The notes under the pieces were generated by a model. It was given only the letters and a program-made list of their open reading frames with translations, did not search any database and had not been told where the DNA came from. From Marinibacterium profundimaris (GTDB lineage: Bacteria > Pseudomonadota > Alphaproteobacteria > Rhodobacterales > Rhodobacteraceae), in the NCBI RefSeq assembly GCF_002210095.1, contig NZ_AQQR01000001.1, positions 806,001 through 870,000 of the forward strand: 64,000 bases of DNA. The letters run 5' to 3'. This document shows positions 11,783 to 27,020 of the stretch, in pieces; the stretch's first letter is position 1; every line of letters begins with the position of its first letter. The position numbers and the translations under genes are program-made.

Positions 11783-13219
11783 ATGGATAAGTCGCCCGAT
11801 GCCTTTCGCACGATCAGCGAGGTCGCCGACTGGCTGGGGATCCAGGCGCATGTCCTGCGGTTCTGGGAAAGCAAGTTCACCCAGGTGAAGCCGGTCAAGC
11901 GCGCCGGCGGACGGCGGTATTACCGGCCCGCCGACATGATGTTGCTGGGCGGCATCAAGAAGCTGCTGCACGAGGACGGGATGACCATCAAGGGCGTCCA
12001 GAAAGTCCTGCGGGAACAGGGCGTTCAGGTGGTCTCGGACCTGTCCCAATCGCTGGATGACGTGGCCGTCAGCGCCGGCCGTCCGCGACGGGCGCACACT
12101 GTGGTGCCGTTCCAGGGACGCGCGACGCTTCTGGACACGGCCCGCGCCGACCGCGACCCCCGGGAGGAGACATCCCGCACGGGTCAGGCCGGGCGGGACT
12201 TCGGACAGGACGACGCCGGGGATGTCATCGACGGCAGTGCAACGCCGTTCGAATCGTCCCCGCCAGCGCCGCACGACCGGGAAGCACAGGTCCCGCATGC
12301 GCAGCTGCCCGAGGCCGACATCACCATCCCCGGGCCATCCGACGAGACCGAAGCCTCCGTGCCCGAGCCTGATGCGGCAGACGTCTTCGCCCAGGACAGG
12401 CAGACATCCGAGTCTGCCGATCCCGAGAGCGCCGAGCCTGTGATGGACGCGCCCGAGGGGATCGCCCCCGAGAGTGCCAAGCCGGAAATGGATGCGCCCG
12501 ATGCGGCGGAGCCGTCTGTCTCCGAGGTCCCGGAGATGCCGGAGGACGGACCCGAAGCTGCGGTCGGGAGCCCCGAGGCCGATCCGGAGCCCGTGCCCAC
12601 CTTCCGCCGCCGTGGCAGCGCGCGCTTCACGCCCATGGCCGCGGAGCCGGAAGACAGCGCAGAAGACGCGCCTTTCGAAGAGCCCGAGACGGACCCCGAA
12701 GCGGACCCGCCAGTCGAAGCGGCCGAGCTGGCCGACATACCTGCGGAAGAGCCGGCCGAGGCGCCCGACCTCGTCTCCGGACTGCCGGAGCCGGAAGAGG
12801 AGCCTTTGCCCGAGCCGGCCGACATGGCCGACATGGCCGACATGGCCGACATGGCCGAAGCTGACGAGACGGACGAGGCTCCGCAAGAAGATCCCGAACC
12901 GCTGGCCGGGTCCGAGCCGGAAGCAGAACAGGAGCGGGCAGAGCCCGAGCCGGAGGCGAACGCGGCCGAGCCGGAACCGGAGCTTGCAGAGCCGGAGGTG
13001 GCCGCGGCCGAGCCGGAGCCTGCCTCAGCACCGCGCCCGGCCATCGTCGATGCGCCCGATCCGCCCGACGAATCCGAGATCGCCGCCGATCCAGGCCTGC
13101 TCTCGCAGGTGTCCCGGATCGGTCGCCTGCCGCCTGCTCAGCGCGAGGAGATTGCCGCCCTGGCCGAGGCGCTCGAAGCGTGGCGCGCCGCCCGGACCGG
13201 TCAGATCCTCTCGCAGTGA
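11783..13219 (+). CDS. MerR family regulator with a long acidic low-complexity tail
   Basis: Residues 1-85 are a MerR-type winged helix: [25 protein letters not shown], then [33 protein letters not shown]. Such domains bind promoter DNA. The remaining ~390 residues are low-complexity, rich in Glu, Pro, Asp and Ala, with PEP/AEPEPE runs and an exact nucleotide repeat encoding [12 protein letters not shown]. The end ([27 protein letters not shown]) looks folded again. No ligand-binding domain is seen. The short DNA-binding domain plus acidic tail next to ihfA is a recurrent Rhodobacterales arrangement; the function is unknown. Confidence 0.88.
12818..12859 (+). repeat. 9-bp tandem repeat inside the MerR-type gene
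   Basis: Four perfect copies of GCCGACATG (12818-12853) are followed by GCCGAA. The unit is a multiple of three, so copy-number change would alter the number of Ala-Asp-Met triplets without shifting the frame. Confidence 0.9.
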
Positions 13220-22303: not shown

Positions 22304-22627
22304 ATGCAACTGCCTCCAAAAGTGACGGACCGTGCCTTTGCCCGCCTGGCCGAAATCGGCGCGGCGGACCAGGGCCAGGCCCTGCGGGTGGCCGTCGAGG
22401 GCGGCGGCTGTTCCGGCTTTCAGTACGAAATCGCGCTGGACGCGCCCGGCACCGATGACCTGGTTCTGGAAGGCCAGGGCCAGAAGGTGGTGGTGGACAC
22501 CGTCTCGCTGCCGTTCCTTGAGAACGCGGTGATCGACTTCACCGAGGAACTGATCGGCGCGCGTTTCGTGATCGAGAACCCCAACGCCACATCCTCCTGC
22601 GGCTGCGGCACGTCCTTTTCGATCTGA
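22304..22627 (+). CDS. erpA: iron-sulfur cluster insertion protein ErpA (A-type carrier)
   Basis: A-type carriers deliver Fe-S clusters to apo-enzymes. The 107 residues hold the three ligand cysteines, one in VEGGGCSGFQYE and two in the C-terminal SSCGCGTSFSI. The FIENPNA-like FVIENPNATSSCGCG ending is the family signature. A second A-type carrier is encoded at 61893-62243; this one resembles ErpA and the other SufA. It is divergent from dgt. Confidence 0.92.
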   Translation: MQLPPKVTDRAFARLAEIGAADQGQALRVAVEGGGCSGFQYEIALDAPGTDDLVLEGQGQKVVVDTVSLPFLENAVIDFTEELIGARFVIENPNATSSCGCGTSFSI

Positions 22628-22738: not shown

Positions 22739-23146
22739 ATGTATCGCAATATCCTGATACCCGTCTCGTTCGATCAAGACCGCGACCGGGACGGCGCGTT
22801 CCGCGTGGCCACCGCGCTGGCTGACGAAGGGGCCACGATCACCCTGCTGCACGTGATGGAGCCGATCCCCGGCTATGTCGCCGCGCAGATCCCGGCCGAG
22901 ATCATGGCGGAATCGCGGGTCGAGGCCGAGAAGCGGATGACCGCGCTGGCGCAGGGCATGCCCGGGGCGAAGACCGCGATCATGTCCGGCCATGCGGGGC
23001 GCAACATCGCCGCCTTTGCCAAGCGTGAAGCGGTCGATTGCCTGGTGCTGGCCTCGCACAAGCACGGGGTCGGAGATTACTTCATCGGCTCGACCGCGGA
23101 TTGGGTGGTTCGCCACGTGGATTGCTGCGTGCACGTCATCCGCTGA
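22739..23146 (+). CDS. UspA family universal stress protein
   Basis: The 135-residue protein is a single Usp domain: MYRNILIPVSFDQDRD at the N terminus, ITLLHVMEPIPGYV, DCLVLASHKHG, and the C-terminal nucleotide-binding GSTADWVVRHVDCCVHVIR. Usp proteins help survive starvation or oxidative stress; the ATP-binding G-2x-G-9x-G(S/T) pattern is largely present. GGAGGG lies eight bases before the ATG. It is convergent with the DMT transporter gene. Confidence 0.92.
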   Translation: MYRNILIPVSFDQDRDRDGAFRVATALADEGATITLLHVMEPIPGYVAAQIPAEIMAESRVEAEKRMTALAQGMPGAKTAIMSGHAGRNIAAFAKREAVDCLVLASHKHGVGDYFIGSTADWVVRHVDCCVHVIR

Positions 23147-23219: not shown

Positions 23220-24131
23220 TCAGGTACGGGCGGCCTCCTGCTGCCGCCGCAGTTCGGCGTCGATGACCAGAAACAGGCCCGAACCCACCACGATCGTCAC
23301 GCCCAGGTAGGTGCCCGGTGCGGGATATTCGCCGAAGACCAGCGCGCCAAGCGCCACCATCCAGACGAATTGCAGGTTCATCAGCGGCGTGACCACGTAG
23401 GCCGCCATCATCCGCAGCGCCACCACCAGCACCCAGCGCGCCAGGAACAGCGTGCCGGCATAGGCGGCGACCCAGCCCAGGTCGGCCAGCGGCATCGGCA
23501 CCCAGACGAAGGGCAGCGCCAGGGCCATCACCGCGGCCAGCGCCGCGTTGGGATAAAAGACCTGCGCCAGCGCGTTGCGCTCGGTCCGCCCGATCAGCCG
23601 CGCCATCACCATCGACAGCGTCCCCGAAACCGAGGCCAGCATCGCCCAGCCATGGCCGGCGGAGATGGCGGCGAAGCCGTCGGGGAAGAGGCACAGCATT
23701 CCGACGAACCCCGCCGCCAAGGCCACCCACGCCGCCGGGCGCACGTGCTCGCCCAGGATCGGCCCCGACATCAGGCCCGCGATCAGGGGCATCAGGCCGA
23801 TGAACAGGAAAACCTCGGCGAAGGGCAGCAACCGGAAGGCATGAAAGAAAGACAGCGCCGCCACCACCGTCGCGGCACAGCGTACGGCCATGGCCACCGG
23901 TCGCCGCGTGCCCAGCCCCTGGCGCTGCGCCGGGTGCCGGTCGGCCAGCAGGCTCAGCCCCATGACCATCAGCCCGCTCAGCGCATACATCTGCGGCGCG
24001 GCATAGCCGCCGGCGATCAGCTTGGTGATCGCATCCGCCGACGAGATGAAGCCGGTGTAAAGCACCACCAACCCTGCGCCGGCCCAGGCGATGCGCCCGG
24101 CCCGGCCGCCCAGGGTCTCGGCCAGGCTCAT
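23220..24131 (-). CDS. EamA/DMT superfamily transporter
   Basis: The 303-residue membrane protein has about ten hydrophobic helices in two EamA repeats, e.g. GLVVLYTGFISSADAITKLI, ALSFFHAFRLLPFAEVFLFIGLMPLIAGLM and the second-repeat VTPLMNLQFVWMVALGALVFGEYP near residue 265. DMT exporters move amino acids, metabolites or drugs across the inner membrane; the substrate is unknown. Its ATG overlaps the stop of the upstream 358-codon gene (ATGA), so the two are translationally coupled, and it may serve the product of the unit that begins with the repeat protein. Confidence 0.9.
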   Translation of the reverse strand: MSLAETLGGRAGRIAWAGAGLVVLYTGFISSADAITKLIAGGYAAPQMYALSGLMVMGLSLLADRHPAQRQGLGTRRPVAMAVRCAATVVAALSFFHAFRLLPFAEVFLFIGLMPLIAGLMSGPILGEHVRPAAWVALAAGFVGMLCLFPDGFAAISAGHGWAMLASVSGTLSMVMARLIGRTERNALAQVFYPNAALAAVMALALPFVWVPMPLADLGWVAAYAGTLFLARWVLVVALRMMAAYVVTPLMNLQFVWMVALGALVFGEYPAPGTYLGVTIVVGSGLFLVIDAELRRQQEAART

Positions 24132-25204
24132 GACGCGATCCCCCGCAGCCCGGTCCGGGCAAAGCCGGCGAAGAAGGCGTCGAACTTGTCGGTGCTCTGC
24201 TCGGCGGCGATCAGCACGTCATGGCTGTCTTCCTCCAGCGCGCCGGCCACAAGCTCGCGCATCGCGCCCCAGTCGCCGCTGCGCCGGTCGTCCAGCCGGA
24301 ACAGGCAGTCCGACAGCTGCCGCAACGGCGCCCGCCCCTCCCGTGGCGCGTGGAAGGCCATCGCGCCCTCGGCCATCGGCCGGGCAAAGGGCGTGCCACC
24401 GGCGCAGGCCAGCGCCCAGTTCGACACGAAGTATTCATGGTAATCGTCGTTTGGACTGGCCCCGGGCCCGGTCTCCACCGCGAAGCGCGACGTGGTCCCG
24501 GCAATCCAGTCCTCCCAGATCGGCGATGGCACCCGCCCCGCATAGCGCAGGGCCACGCAGACCTCGGCCAGCAGGTCCGCGTTCTGCTCCAGCCAGGCCA
24601 GGATGCCCGCGTATTCCAGCGAGGTCACCGCCTCTTCCGACAGCTGCGGATCCTGCCGCCCGTATCGGCTGAGGTAGAAGACGATATGCGTCAGCTCGTA
24701 CGCCGCCTTCTTGTTCGGCAGCTGGAAGGTCGCGGAGCGTTCCATGAACCGGTGCAGCCGCTCGGTCAGCCCGGTGTCGTCCTTCAGCGGATCGGCCCCG
24801 CGCCGCGCCATCAGCCGCCGCGCCTCGGCCCTCTGCAGGTCCGACATCTCGGCCTCGGCCAGCCCTTCGCGTGCGGCCCAGTCGACCAGCGCCTCGCCCT
24901 TGGTTCCGTCCATGCCCAGATCCTCGAGATCGAGGCAGATGGACAACAGGAACCGGTAATATTGCGGAAAGAATTCAATCCGTTGCACGACCCGGTCATA
25001 GAAGCCGCGATGCGAGTCCAGCGCCGCCTCCGGCAGGTCCCGGCCCGTGCATTCGAGGATGTTCAGAAGCTCGGCATTTTCCTTCAGCCAGAACACGTCG
25101 TCGCCAAAGCGGCGGTGACTGGCAAAGCCGTCCAGCAGGGCGCCCAGGCGGGCGCCCTCTGCTTGCCGCCGGGACGGGACGTTCAGGCGAATGACATTCG
25201 ACAT
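24128..25204 (-). CDS. uncharacterised helical protein, partner of the repeat protein
   Basis: No enzyme fold is recognised in these 358 residues. Two related helical segments stand out: ENAELLNILECTGRDLPEAAL with FYDRVVQRIEFFPQYYRFLL (about 42-88), and AYELTHIVFYLSRYG with QNADLLAEVCVALRYAG (about 165-220). The two ExxxLL..C.AL-like stretches suggest an internal duplication of an all-alpha unit. From memory it may be a Rhodobacterales-only family (possibly DUF6902), which I could not verify. It starts 68 bases after the repeat-protein gene and overlaps the DMT gene, so all three probably form one operon. Confidence 0.75.
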   Translation of the reverse strand: MSNVIRLNVPSRRQAEGARLGALLDGFASHRRFGDDVFWLKENAELLNILECTGRDLPEAALDSHRGFYDRVVQRIEFFPQYYRFLLSICLDLEDLGMDGTKGEALVDWAAREGLAEAEMSDLQRAEARRLMARRGADPLKDDTGLTERLHRFMERSATFQLPNKKAAYELTHIVFYLSRYGRQDPQLSEEAVTSLEYAGILAWLEQNADLLAEVCVALRYAGRVPSPIWEDWIAGTTSRFAVETGPGASPNDDYHEYFVSNWALACAGGTPFARPMAEGAMAFHAPREGRAPLRQLSDCLFRLDDRRSGDWGAMRELVAGALEEDSHDVLIAAEQSTDKFDAFFAGFARTGLRGIAS

Positions 25205-25272
25205 GAGGGGTCTCCTTTCGTGGAACGGCGCTTCGTGAACGCCCCGTGGCCCGGATCAACGATGCCGGCGGG

Positions 25273-25872
25273 TCAGCTGCCCGACGAGAACATGTGGGTG
25301 GCGTCACCGTCGGTTGCCGCGGCGGAGGTCGCCGGGGCCGAGCCCGAAGAGAACATCTGCGTACCTTCGCCTGCGCCGGCTTCGGCCGAGGCGACGGGAG
25401 CGGAGCCCGAGGAGAACATTTGCGTGCCCTCACCGGTGCCGGCTGCGGCCGATGCCACCGGAGCGGAGCCGGATGAGAACATCTGCGTGCCCTCGCCGGT
25501 GCCGGCCTCGGCCGATGCGGCGGGTGCGGAGCCCGAGGAGAACATCTGCGTGCCCTCACCGGCGCCGGCTTCGGCCGATGCGACCGGAGCGGAGCCCGAG
25601 GAGAACATCTGCACAAGTTCGCCGCTCATCACGTCGCTGCGCTGCGGTGCGGACCCGGACGAAAACATCTCTGTCCCTTCGCCGGTAAGAGAGCCCGCGG
25701 ACAGGCTGGGCGCCGAGCCCGAGGAGAAAAGCTGCGTCTCGGCACCACCGAACATGTCGCCCATAAGGGTCGGTGCGGAGCCCGAAGAGAACATCTCGAC
25801 GCCGTCGCCGACGAGCGTGCCCGAGGTCGGTTCGATAACGTCTGCGCGGTAGGATTTCAGCAAGGATTTCAT
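25273..25872 (-). CDS. FSSGSAP multi-repeat protein (candidate peptide precursor)
   Basis: The 199-residue product has a 26-residue leader-like start (MKSLLKSYRADVIEPTSG..) followed by nine copies of MFSSGSAP (LFSSGSAP once) spaced 20-21 residues apart; the ninth, MFSSGS, ends at the stop codon. Linkers converge on VASAEAGAGEGTQ in the central copies, which are nearly identical at DNA level with a 63-bp period, a sign of recent amplification. There is no Cys, no export signal and no membrane helix. GGAGA lies eight bases before the ATG at 25872; an upstream in-frame start at 25944 would read through a hairpin. Possibly the family curated as DUF6749 (memory, unverified). Function unknown. Confidence 0.8.
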   Translation of the reverse strand: MKSLLKSYRADVIEPTSGTLVGDGVEMFSSGSAPTLMGDMFGGAETQLFSSGSAPSLSAGSLTGEGTEMFSSGSAPQRSDVMSGELVQMFSSGSAPVASAEAGAGEGTQMFSSGSAPAASAEAGTGEGTQMFSSGSAPVASAAAGTGEGTQMFSSGSAPVASAEAGAGEGTQMFSSGSAPATSAAATDGDATHMFSSGS

Positions 25873-26240
25873 GACAGTGTCTCCGTTGAGGCAGGTTGAT
25901 CGTGCCTCAACGCTTACACGGAAAACATGATCCGAAAAGCGCAATTTCTACCCAGGGTTGTTTCCTGCAAGACTTATCCACATGAGCGTCATCCGGCAAT
26001 TGGCTGTTCGGAATTCCAAACAAACTGTCACAAATTCTAATAAAAAAAGTTATCCACAGGTGGGTTTGAGCCTTGCTCCGTCACGTTCCCGACCGAATCC
26101 GCCTGCGAATCATGCGAATGAGAGTCCGGTCAAGACAAGGCTACGGACAGAATCGGGCAGTTTCGCGTCAGCCCCCGCCTTGCCCCCGGACCGTCGCTGC
26201 GCGATAGATTCGCGGCAATCGGAAAAGGCGGGAGACGGGC
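25873..26240. other. AT-rich spacer between the repeat-protein gene and xth, with two DnaA-box-like sites
   Basis: No gene is seen in these 368 bases, which separate divergent genes. Besides the hairpin at 25884-25912 there are two perfect TTATCCACA nonamers in the same orientation (25974-25982 and 26050-26058) beside an AT-rich run with seven consecutive A bases. These match the DnaA box, but there are too few for a replication origin and no origin-associated genes are near. Confidence 0.5.
25884..25912 (-). promoter_or_regulatory. hairpin in front of the repeat-protein ribosome binding site
   Basis: CGTTGAGGCA (25884-25893) and TGCCTCAACG (25903-25912) are perfect 10-bp inverted repeats around a nine-base loop. 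On the minus strand the structure ends exactly at the GGAGA ribosome binding site. It could be a repressor site or a translational control hairpin. Confidence 0.6.
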
Positions 26241-27020
26241 ATGAAGATCGCGACATTCAACATCAACGGGATCCGCGCACGGGCCGAGGCCCTGCCCACC
26301 TGGCTGGACGAGGCGCAGCCGGACGTGGCGCTGCTGCAGGAGATCAAGTCGGTGGACGAGAGCTTTCCGCGCGAGCTGTTCGAGGACCGCGGCTACAACG
26401 TCGAAACCCACGGACAGAAAAGCTTCAACGGCGTGGCGATCCTGTCGAAGCTGCCTCTGGAAGATGTCACCCGCGGGCTACCCGGCGATGACGACGACGA
26501 CCACGCCCGCTGGATCGAAGCCACGGTCGTCGGCGAGAAGGCGGTGCGGCTCTGTGGTCTCTACCTGCCCAACGGCAACCCGGTGCCCGGCCCGAAATAC
26601 GACTACAAGCTCGCCTGGATGGAGCGCCTGCGCACCCGCGCGTCAGAGCTTCTGGCATCCGAGGAACTCGCGGTGATGGCCGGCGACTACAACATCATCC
26701 CCCAGGCCGAAGACGCCGCCCGCCCCGACGCCTGGCGCGAGGACGCGCTCTTCCGCCTCGAAAGCCGCGAGGCCTTCCGCCGGATCCTCGCCCTGGGCTT
26801 CACCGACGCCTTCCGCGCCACCAACCAGGCGCCGGGGCATTATTCCTTCTGGGATTACCAGGCCGGCGCCTGGGACCGGAACGACGGGATTCGCATCGAC
26901 CACCTGCTGCTGACCCCGCAGGCCGCCGACCGCCTCACCGATTGTGGCATCGACGCCGAAATCCGCGGCCGGACCAAGCCTTCGGACCACGTGCCGGTCT
27001 GGATCGAACTCGACGCCTGA
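26241..27020 (+). CDS. xthA: exodeoxyribonuclease III
   Basis: XthA cuts DNA at abasic sites and degrades 3' ends in base excision repair. The 259-residue endonuclease/exonuclease/phosphatase fold shows MKIATFNINGIRARAEALPTW, the metal ligand Glu in LLQEIK, LCGLYLPNGNP, the catalytic GDYNIIP, and the C-terminal RIDHLLLTP and SDHVPVWIEL. It ends convergent with the FAD monooxygenase gene, with a palindromic repeat between them. Confidence 0.96.
   Translation: MKIATFNINGIRARAEALPTWLDEAQPDVALLQEIKSVDESFPRELFEDRGYNVETHGQKSFNGVAILSKLPLEDVTRGLPGDDDDDHARWIEATVVGEKAVRLCGLYLPNGNPVPGPKYDYKLAWMERLRTRASELLASEELAVMAGDYNIIPQAEDAARPDAWREDALFRLESREAFRRILALGFTDAFRATNQAPGHYSFWDYQAGAWDRNDGIRIDHLLLTPQAADRLTDCGIDAEIRGRTKPSDHVPVWIELDA

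Follow-up and report, generated by a model that had tools for sequence, protein, structure and literature searches.

In a 64,000-nucleotide stretch of the Marinibacterium profundimaris genome (contig NZ_AQQR01000001.1, positions 806,001 to 870,000; hereafter the window), we found three adjacent genes on the reverse strand that resemble a system for producing a ribosomally synthesized and post-translationally modified peptide (RiPP). Gene A (25273..25872, ATG at 25872, stop codon at 25275-25273) codes for a repeat protein of 199 amino acids, the candidate multi-core precursor. Gene B (24128..25204) codes for a 358-amino-acid protein assigned by Pfam and alignment to the family DUF6902, a candidate peptide epimerase or RiPP-modifying enzyme, and gene C (23220..24131) for an EamA/DMT transporter of 303 amino acids, proposed as the exporter from its Pfam match and the distribution of its orthologues. 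Genes A and B are separated by 68 bases and the TGA of B overlaps the ATG of C (ATGA), just as a first-pass annotation, made from the sequence alone, had described; that annotation placed the unit at 23220-25912, and the three genes stand, but with the ATG of A at 25872 the extent is 23220-25872.

Protein A consists of a leader-like N-terminal stretch (residues 1-27; 25792..25872, reverse strand), in which M1, K6, and G22 are invariant in an alignment of 18 sequences, and an array that fills the rest of the gene (25276..25791, reverse strand). The translated array contains nine copies of the word F-S-S-G-S, starting at residues 28, 49, 70, 90, 111, 132, 153, 174, and 195 (spacings of 21, 21, 20, 21, 21, 21, 21, and 21 residues), each with a Gly six residues ahead of it, and the ninth copy forms the C-terminal end of the protein. 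The nine-fold motif and its period of 20 to 21 residues had thus been read correctly, including the last copy closing the protein; the longer motif MFSSGSAP holds only for its core, since one copy is preceded by L and the last lacks the AP. No 5-mer exceeded 4 copies in 10,000 shuffles of A, against the 9 observed, and a chance low-complexity repeat is ruled out by these shuffles together with the conservation described below. At the DNA level, Tandem Repeats Finder detected a 63-bp array at 25279-25612 (5.3 copies, 82% matches). As had been noted, the protein has no Cys. The highest Kyte-Doolittle mean over 19 residues is 0.70, that is, there is no hydrophobic segment, which weakens the earlier alternative of a surface-display protein (no signal-peptide predictor was applied). 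Protein A matched nothing in Pfam or NCBIfam, and four of its homologues and a comparison with PHROGs gave only sub-cut-off or weak matches, leaving A in no known family.

Protein B matches DUF6902 (PF21843) with 542.4 bits against a cut-off of 27 (E 5.1e-163, positions 1-351 of 351) and also passes the cut-off of DUF6895 (PF21836), with 86.6 bits against 23.8 (positions 15-232 of 289). It is predicted with high confidence to be all-alpha (pLDDT 92.4), and its invariant residues are strikingly polar. No solved structure is related to it by sequence, and the search for a fold analogue in the PDB ended without a significant candidate (best E 0.067). The statement that B has no recognised fold stands to that extent, while the family assignment now gives it a place among known sequences.

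The association between A and B was examined in 295 whole genomes of the Rhodobacteraceae, one genome for nearly every genus, of which 82 contain DUF6902. A profile of the A repeat (E <= 0.001) matched 75 genomes, all of them DUF6902-positive, and none of the 213 DUF6902-negative genomes. This profile misses very divergent words, as in four positive genomes (G041, G099, G264, and G283) where direct reading revealed a repeat gene with an unusual word upstream of B. Altogether, A accompanies B in 79 of the 81 assessable positive genomes (G139 was excluded, as its contig begins inside B). In a second set of loci, the best 80 of 359 relatives from a profile-guided scan, a repeat gene lies upstream of B in every case, at most 345 bases away; the two sets are not fully independent, with 21 of these 80 loci sharing their B protein with the 295-genome set. 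A precursor gene conserved as a pair with its adjoining enzyme is one of the marks of RiPP systems, and it is present here in both sets. Two DUF6902 genes lack an upstream repeat gene (L067 and L083), the latter strongly diverged (E 2.3e-37) and possibly decaying or repurposed. A search of plasmids for DUF6902 gave no match.

Gene C follows the same distribution. Its orthologue (E 1.4e-57 or better, identity of at least 42%) is present in 61 of the 295 genomes, all 61 DUF6902-positive, and in none of the 213 negative ones; the next EamA proteins have identities of at most 38%. The first-pass annotation had named a repeat gene widespread without its partners as a refutation; this check did not refute the unit, as neither the repeat profile nor the transporter orthologue is found in the 213 genomes without DUF6902. 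Among the 21 DUF6902 genomes lacking the orthologue, 20 were inspected by eye (the short-contig genome G139 was left out), and two carry another EamA-like gene after B. At L079 and L066, a distant EamA-like transporter below the orthologue threshold occupies the place of C after DUF6902, as judged by eye. Arrays in loci without C are shorter (median of 4 copies versus 8 with C, uncorrected for phylogeny; the one zero in this comparison is an artefact at L076, which really has two copies), as if the system decays once export is lost.

The short word of A varies between genomes. Deduplication on residues 61-300 of B left 138 loci, in which words were called automatically apart from four set by hand (L018, L066, L076, and L080) and two entered by hand (L109 and L110); L083, which has no A gene, was excluded. 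We found 41 distinct four-residue cores following a hydrophobic position, mostly Phe. They include SSGS (30), TSWS (14), TSGS (13), and TSGL (11), as well as TTSL, TSSM, STSC, ASGS, CSAS, and TCGL. Among strains of known genus, FTSGL is the word of Shimia, FTSWS of Mameliella, FTSSM of Roseovarius, and FSTSC of Ruegeria. Each array uses one short word at a fixed distance past the conserved Gly, and the locus word was found in 879 of 901 register-anchored copies, a figure restricted to copies that begin with F or Y and in which 5 of the 22 exceptions look like chance anchors (an alternative count of 944 out of 950 is biased, its copies having been chosen within two mismatches of the word). Of the 820 intervals between words, 732 measure 20 or 21 residues and 47 measure 8, and arrays with only two or three copies exist. 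The word is the exact end of the array in 92 of 134 arrays, which suggests that the mature peptide might end there too. In one gene (L127), FTSGS (eight copies, mostly followed by AP) is mixed with FTTSAEA (three copies).

This uniformity is not merely the result of recent duplication, since the codons of the word differ between copies at synonymous sites (synonymous divergence, pS, of 0.53); recent duplication as its sole source is thereby ruled out, and some central copies are recent. The nonsynonymous divergence (pN) of the word is inflated by the AGY and TCN codons of Ser. The spacers beyond Ala-Pro are nearly unconstrained (pN/pS of 0.83). The repeats are thus conserved at the protein level while synonymous sites diverge, a point on which the first-pass annotation had made its reading depend. 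Mapped onto a tree built from 134 B proteins, the word requires 57 changes, compared with a mean of 98.75 when shuffled: it follows descent yet switches often. The loci L115 and L118, with B proteins 95.5% identical and orthologous spacers kept, have Ser in one and Thr in the other in every unit, and L174 and L192 (B 82.5% identical) differ between Met and Leu in the same block-wise manner. Four Ruegeria arrays (L143, L152, L166, and L173) have (F/Y)STSC in the internal copies and (F/Y)SSGS in the first and last, as if a word were expanding outward from the centre of the array, a switch caught half-way. Words that are uniform within a strain and different between strains suggest that the identity of the peptide matters to a receiver.

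The DUF6895 proteins are relatives of B, and their family is reported in a 2026 review (PMC13352647, citing Shi et al., ACS Catal. 2026) to include a lasso-peptide epimerase. We examined ten DUF6895 genes, five from whole-genome searches (L106, L107, L108, L111, and L224) and five plasmid-borne ones from Streptomyces, Pseudalkalibacillus, and Gemmatirosa, the full set also including proteobacteria; sub-cut-off matches (L104, L105, and L225-L227) were left out of the count that follows. Nine of the ten have a small frame directly upstream on the same strand, and L230 has none. In eight of these frames (at L106, 6653-6847; L107, 7910-8338; L108, 6494-6907; L228, 5602-5862; L229, 5747-5953; L231, 5548-5904; also at L224 and at L111, where it lacks an ATG), inspection by eye showed a common leader of the type S/A-G-[ILV]-[ILV], e.g., LRKSGILNTDTTLNQLLEA, and after it an aromatic core, for instance IGPWYAYH, LVGPWFVL, DWTFVSPNYVYK, or GWWAVV, and those of L107 and L108 contain two leader-core units each. 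Further aromatic core motifs seen upstream of DUF6895 genes are GPWFV, GPWYAY, and DWTFVSPNYVY, and at L106 a papain/C39-like peptidase lies about 1.3 kb upstream. Found in several phyla and in part on plasmids, the DUF6895 genes with their small upstream frames apparently represent a RiPP class of their own.

When nine DUF6895 proteins (L111 left out) were aligned with 17 chosen DUF6902 sequences, E45, H173, G182, D210, E214, and H256 were identical in all 9 and all 17, and Y169, T172, and Y255 were nearly invariant. Since a precursor-like frame is common beside enzymes of this superfamily and the residues resembling an active site are kept, A is likely to be the substrate of B; this is the main argument for our interpretation. 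We thus consider it probable, on comparative grounds, that A-B-C comprises a multi-core RiPP precursor, a peptide-modifying and probably epimerising enzyme, and an exporter. Protein A would be a cytosolic precursor with many short cores (F-S-S-G-S, with Met before and Ala-Pro after as flanks) parted by spacers of near-fixed length, and B would bind the repeated units and modify each core. The likeliest chemistry would be a cofactor-free epimerisation at the alpha-carbon, leaving a D-residue in each word, a leading guess that draws on what is reported for DUF6895 and on the conservation of acid/base residues. An unlinked protease would then free the short peptides; since the word closes most arrays, a cut right behind it is plausible. 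Export of the peptide or of a fragment would fall to the DMT transporter C. The first-pass annotation had likened the unit to a multi-core precursor with a modifying partner and an exporter; co-occurrence and the relatives beside precursor-like frames speak for that arrangement, with modification, cleavage, and export staying as proposals, and we infer that B acts on A and that proteolysis and export follow; the peptide may have a role in signalling or self-recognition.

Several observations weigh against this interpretation. DUF6902 departs from DUF6895 at conserved sites, e.g., D122 and Q124 in place of P and R, and the alignment of the two families is gapped around E45, so that the chemistry of B may differ from that of DUF6895. 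In two DUF6902 genomes (G039 and G288) the 700 bases ahead of B contain no repeat gene, 42 of the 134 arrays stop elsewhere than exactly at the word, and the EamA gene after B is unrecognised in 19 of the 82 DUF6902 genomes. EamA transporters, moreover, are mainly tied to amino acids and small metabolites. Finally, the scan of the flanking genes revealed no protease, cyclase, or regulator, nor a dedicated leader peptidase, which is another feature by which RiPP clusters are recognized; such a peptidase is not part of every RiPP class.

The best surviving alternative, which we nevertheless regard as rather improbable, is that A forms an intracellular beta-solenoid or filament in which the residues of the word stack as ladders, with B as an assembly or binding partner instead of a modifying enzyme. 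Stacking alone would favor identical words in every coil, and the word is indeed uniform within each protein; the tight spacing of the words fits as well, and AlphaFold2 draws A as a beta-solenoid-like chain with two strands per 21-residue unit. However, the confidence of this model is only moderate (pLDDT 67.7), a fold search with it against solved structures gave no match (best E 1.2), and AlphaFold2 is reported (PMC11795689) to draw confident yet unrealistic beta-solenoids for repeats. The 8-residue intervals, the arrays of two or three copies, and the almost free evolution of the spacers are also difficult to reconcile with a stacked fold, and the conserved residues of B resemble an active site common to DUF6895.

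Two further roles explain less than a modified multi-core peptide does. In the first, B would recognise the word peptide as a receptor or sensor, and A-B-C would serve peptide signalling with no covalent modification involved. The all-alpha structure of B would suit such a role, and the strain-specific short words recall, by analogy, the specificity groups of pheromones. Nonetheless, B has no DNA-binding or kinase domain in Pfam and no significant fold match in the PDB, its polar residues are kept in homologues beside quite different peptides, and it does not track the word as a specificity receptor should (the 95.5% identical pair of B proteins goes with two words), all of which makes this explanation improbable. 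We give an equally low probability to the second, in which the product is not a peptide: B would make a modified amino acid on A, a renewable scaffold, from which it would be cut to leave the cell through C as a small molecule. The array would supply many identical substrate sites, and the superfamily to which C belongs as an EamA protein exports amino acids and small metabolites, but a single modified residue leaves unexplained that all five word positions are uniform in each genome and that the words nevertheless vary from genome to genome. A lasso peptide is unlikely because PF13471, the B-type transglutaminase-like leader peptidase, has no match in the genome of M. profundimaris (E <= 0.001); as for a PF00733 cyclase, none adjoins the precursor, and the two partial matches in the genome (24.6 and 23.6 bits against a cut-off of 21) are both outside the window.

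The unit lies between two conserved genes on the forward strand that are not part of it, both identified with Pfam: a divergent xth-like gene of the exonuclease III family (Exo_endo_phos, 26241..27020) and a convergent gene for an ErpA-like Fe-S biogenesis protein (Fe-S_biosyn, 22304..22627), with a universal stress protein (Usp) gene at 22739-23146 between C and erpA. The flanking genes scanned were xth, erpA, an HD-domain gene (dgt-like), argS, Usp, and a gene for an FAD enzyme and, further out, those for a glycosidase and a SPOR protein. Full flanks were available for 64 loci of the second set: 63 of them have a divergent xth upstream, 59 have erpA downstream, and in 61 gene C comes after B; a Usp-like gene is near the unit in one. 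At DUF6902-negative loci fetched around xth (30 loci fetched out of 86 genomes with a match), erpA lies 0.1 to 1.2 kb from xth in 11 of 14, which bears out the statement in the first-pass annotation that the two genes are neighbors in relatives. Its suggestion that the unit is an insertion fared less well: because the unit occupies the same erpA-xth slot in many genera, its distribution points most readily to ancient vertical descent, with the unit lost in some lineages, and not to recent insertion. Elsewhere in the window, at 12817-12858, there is a perfect 9-base tandem repeat (GGCCGACAT, 4.7 copies) unrelated to the A-B-C unit.

No paper in the literature library searched mentions DUF6902, and among the matches listed by broader full-text searches nothing was directly relevant to the A-B-C system. 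In this RiPP-like system, an enzyme whose family has only lately been connected with epimerisation goes together with an unusual precursor of many copies and with an unusual, concerted change of the word. If our interpretation is right, it would be a widespread peptide-producing system of roseobacters built on a family recently linked to peptide epimerisation, and the exact peptide would be predictable for each of some 40 words. A word that is identical within each genome despite codon divergence, and is then switched as a block, would provide a natural experiment in concerted evolution under selection for specificity. The comparable pairs of a DUF6895 gene and a small frame, found in Streptomyces, Bacillaceae, Gemmatimonadota, and proteobacteria, point to a wider class of peptides. 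More speculatively, marine roseobacters could use the peptide as a strain-specific "password": five residues long, epimerised so as to contain a D-residue, produced in many copies per array, and exported for signalling or for self/non-self recognition; selection would keep one word per cell, conversion within the array would replace all copies when specificity shifts, and DUF6902 and DUF6895 would together define a multi-phylum RiPP class. We put this scenario forward as a tentative one, less likely than not.

Among known systems, the closest is that of the DUF6895 lasso-peptide epimerase. Beyond the shared cut-off and the residues E45, Y169, T172, H173, G182, D210, E214, Y255, and H256, common to both families almost throughout, the DUF6895 genes have a precursor-like frame upstream, as B has A. 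Unlike their small frames, A strings many copies into an array behind another kind of leader; in addition, PF13471 is missing from its genome, and D122 and Q124 differ. MslH, the epimerase of the lasso peptide MS-271, also epimerises a residue of a ribosomal peptide, as proposed for B, but is reported to be a metal-dependent acid/base enzyme (PMC10406935). Since B is all-alpha and has no significant fold match in the PDB, MslH is at most a functional analogue of B. The alpha-factor of yeast is made from a repeated peptide pheromone precursor; A differs from it in being bacterial, in lacking a hydrophobic N-terminal segment, and in having no receptor identified, and resembles it in that one protein would yield many copies of one specific peptide. 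Repeated cores also occur in multi-core RiPP precursors of the ustiloxin type, cyanobactins, and multi-core graspetides, which, like A and B, have short core copies parted by spacers and an adjoining modifying enzyme. The enzyme family, the leader, and the flanking motifs are different, and the core of A sets it apart from them in being uniform in each genome and switching as a block.

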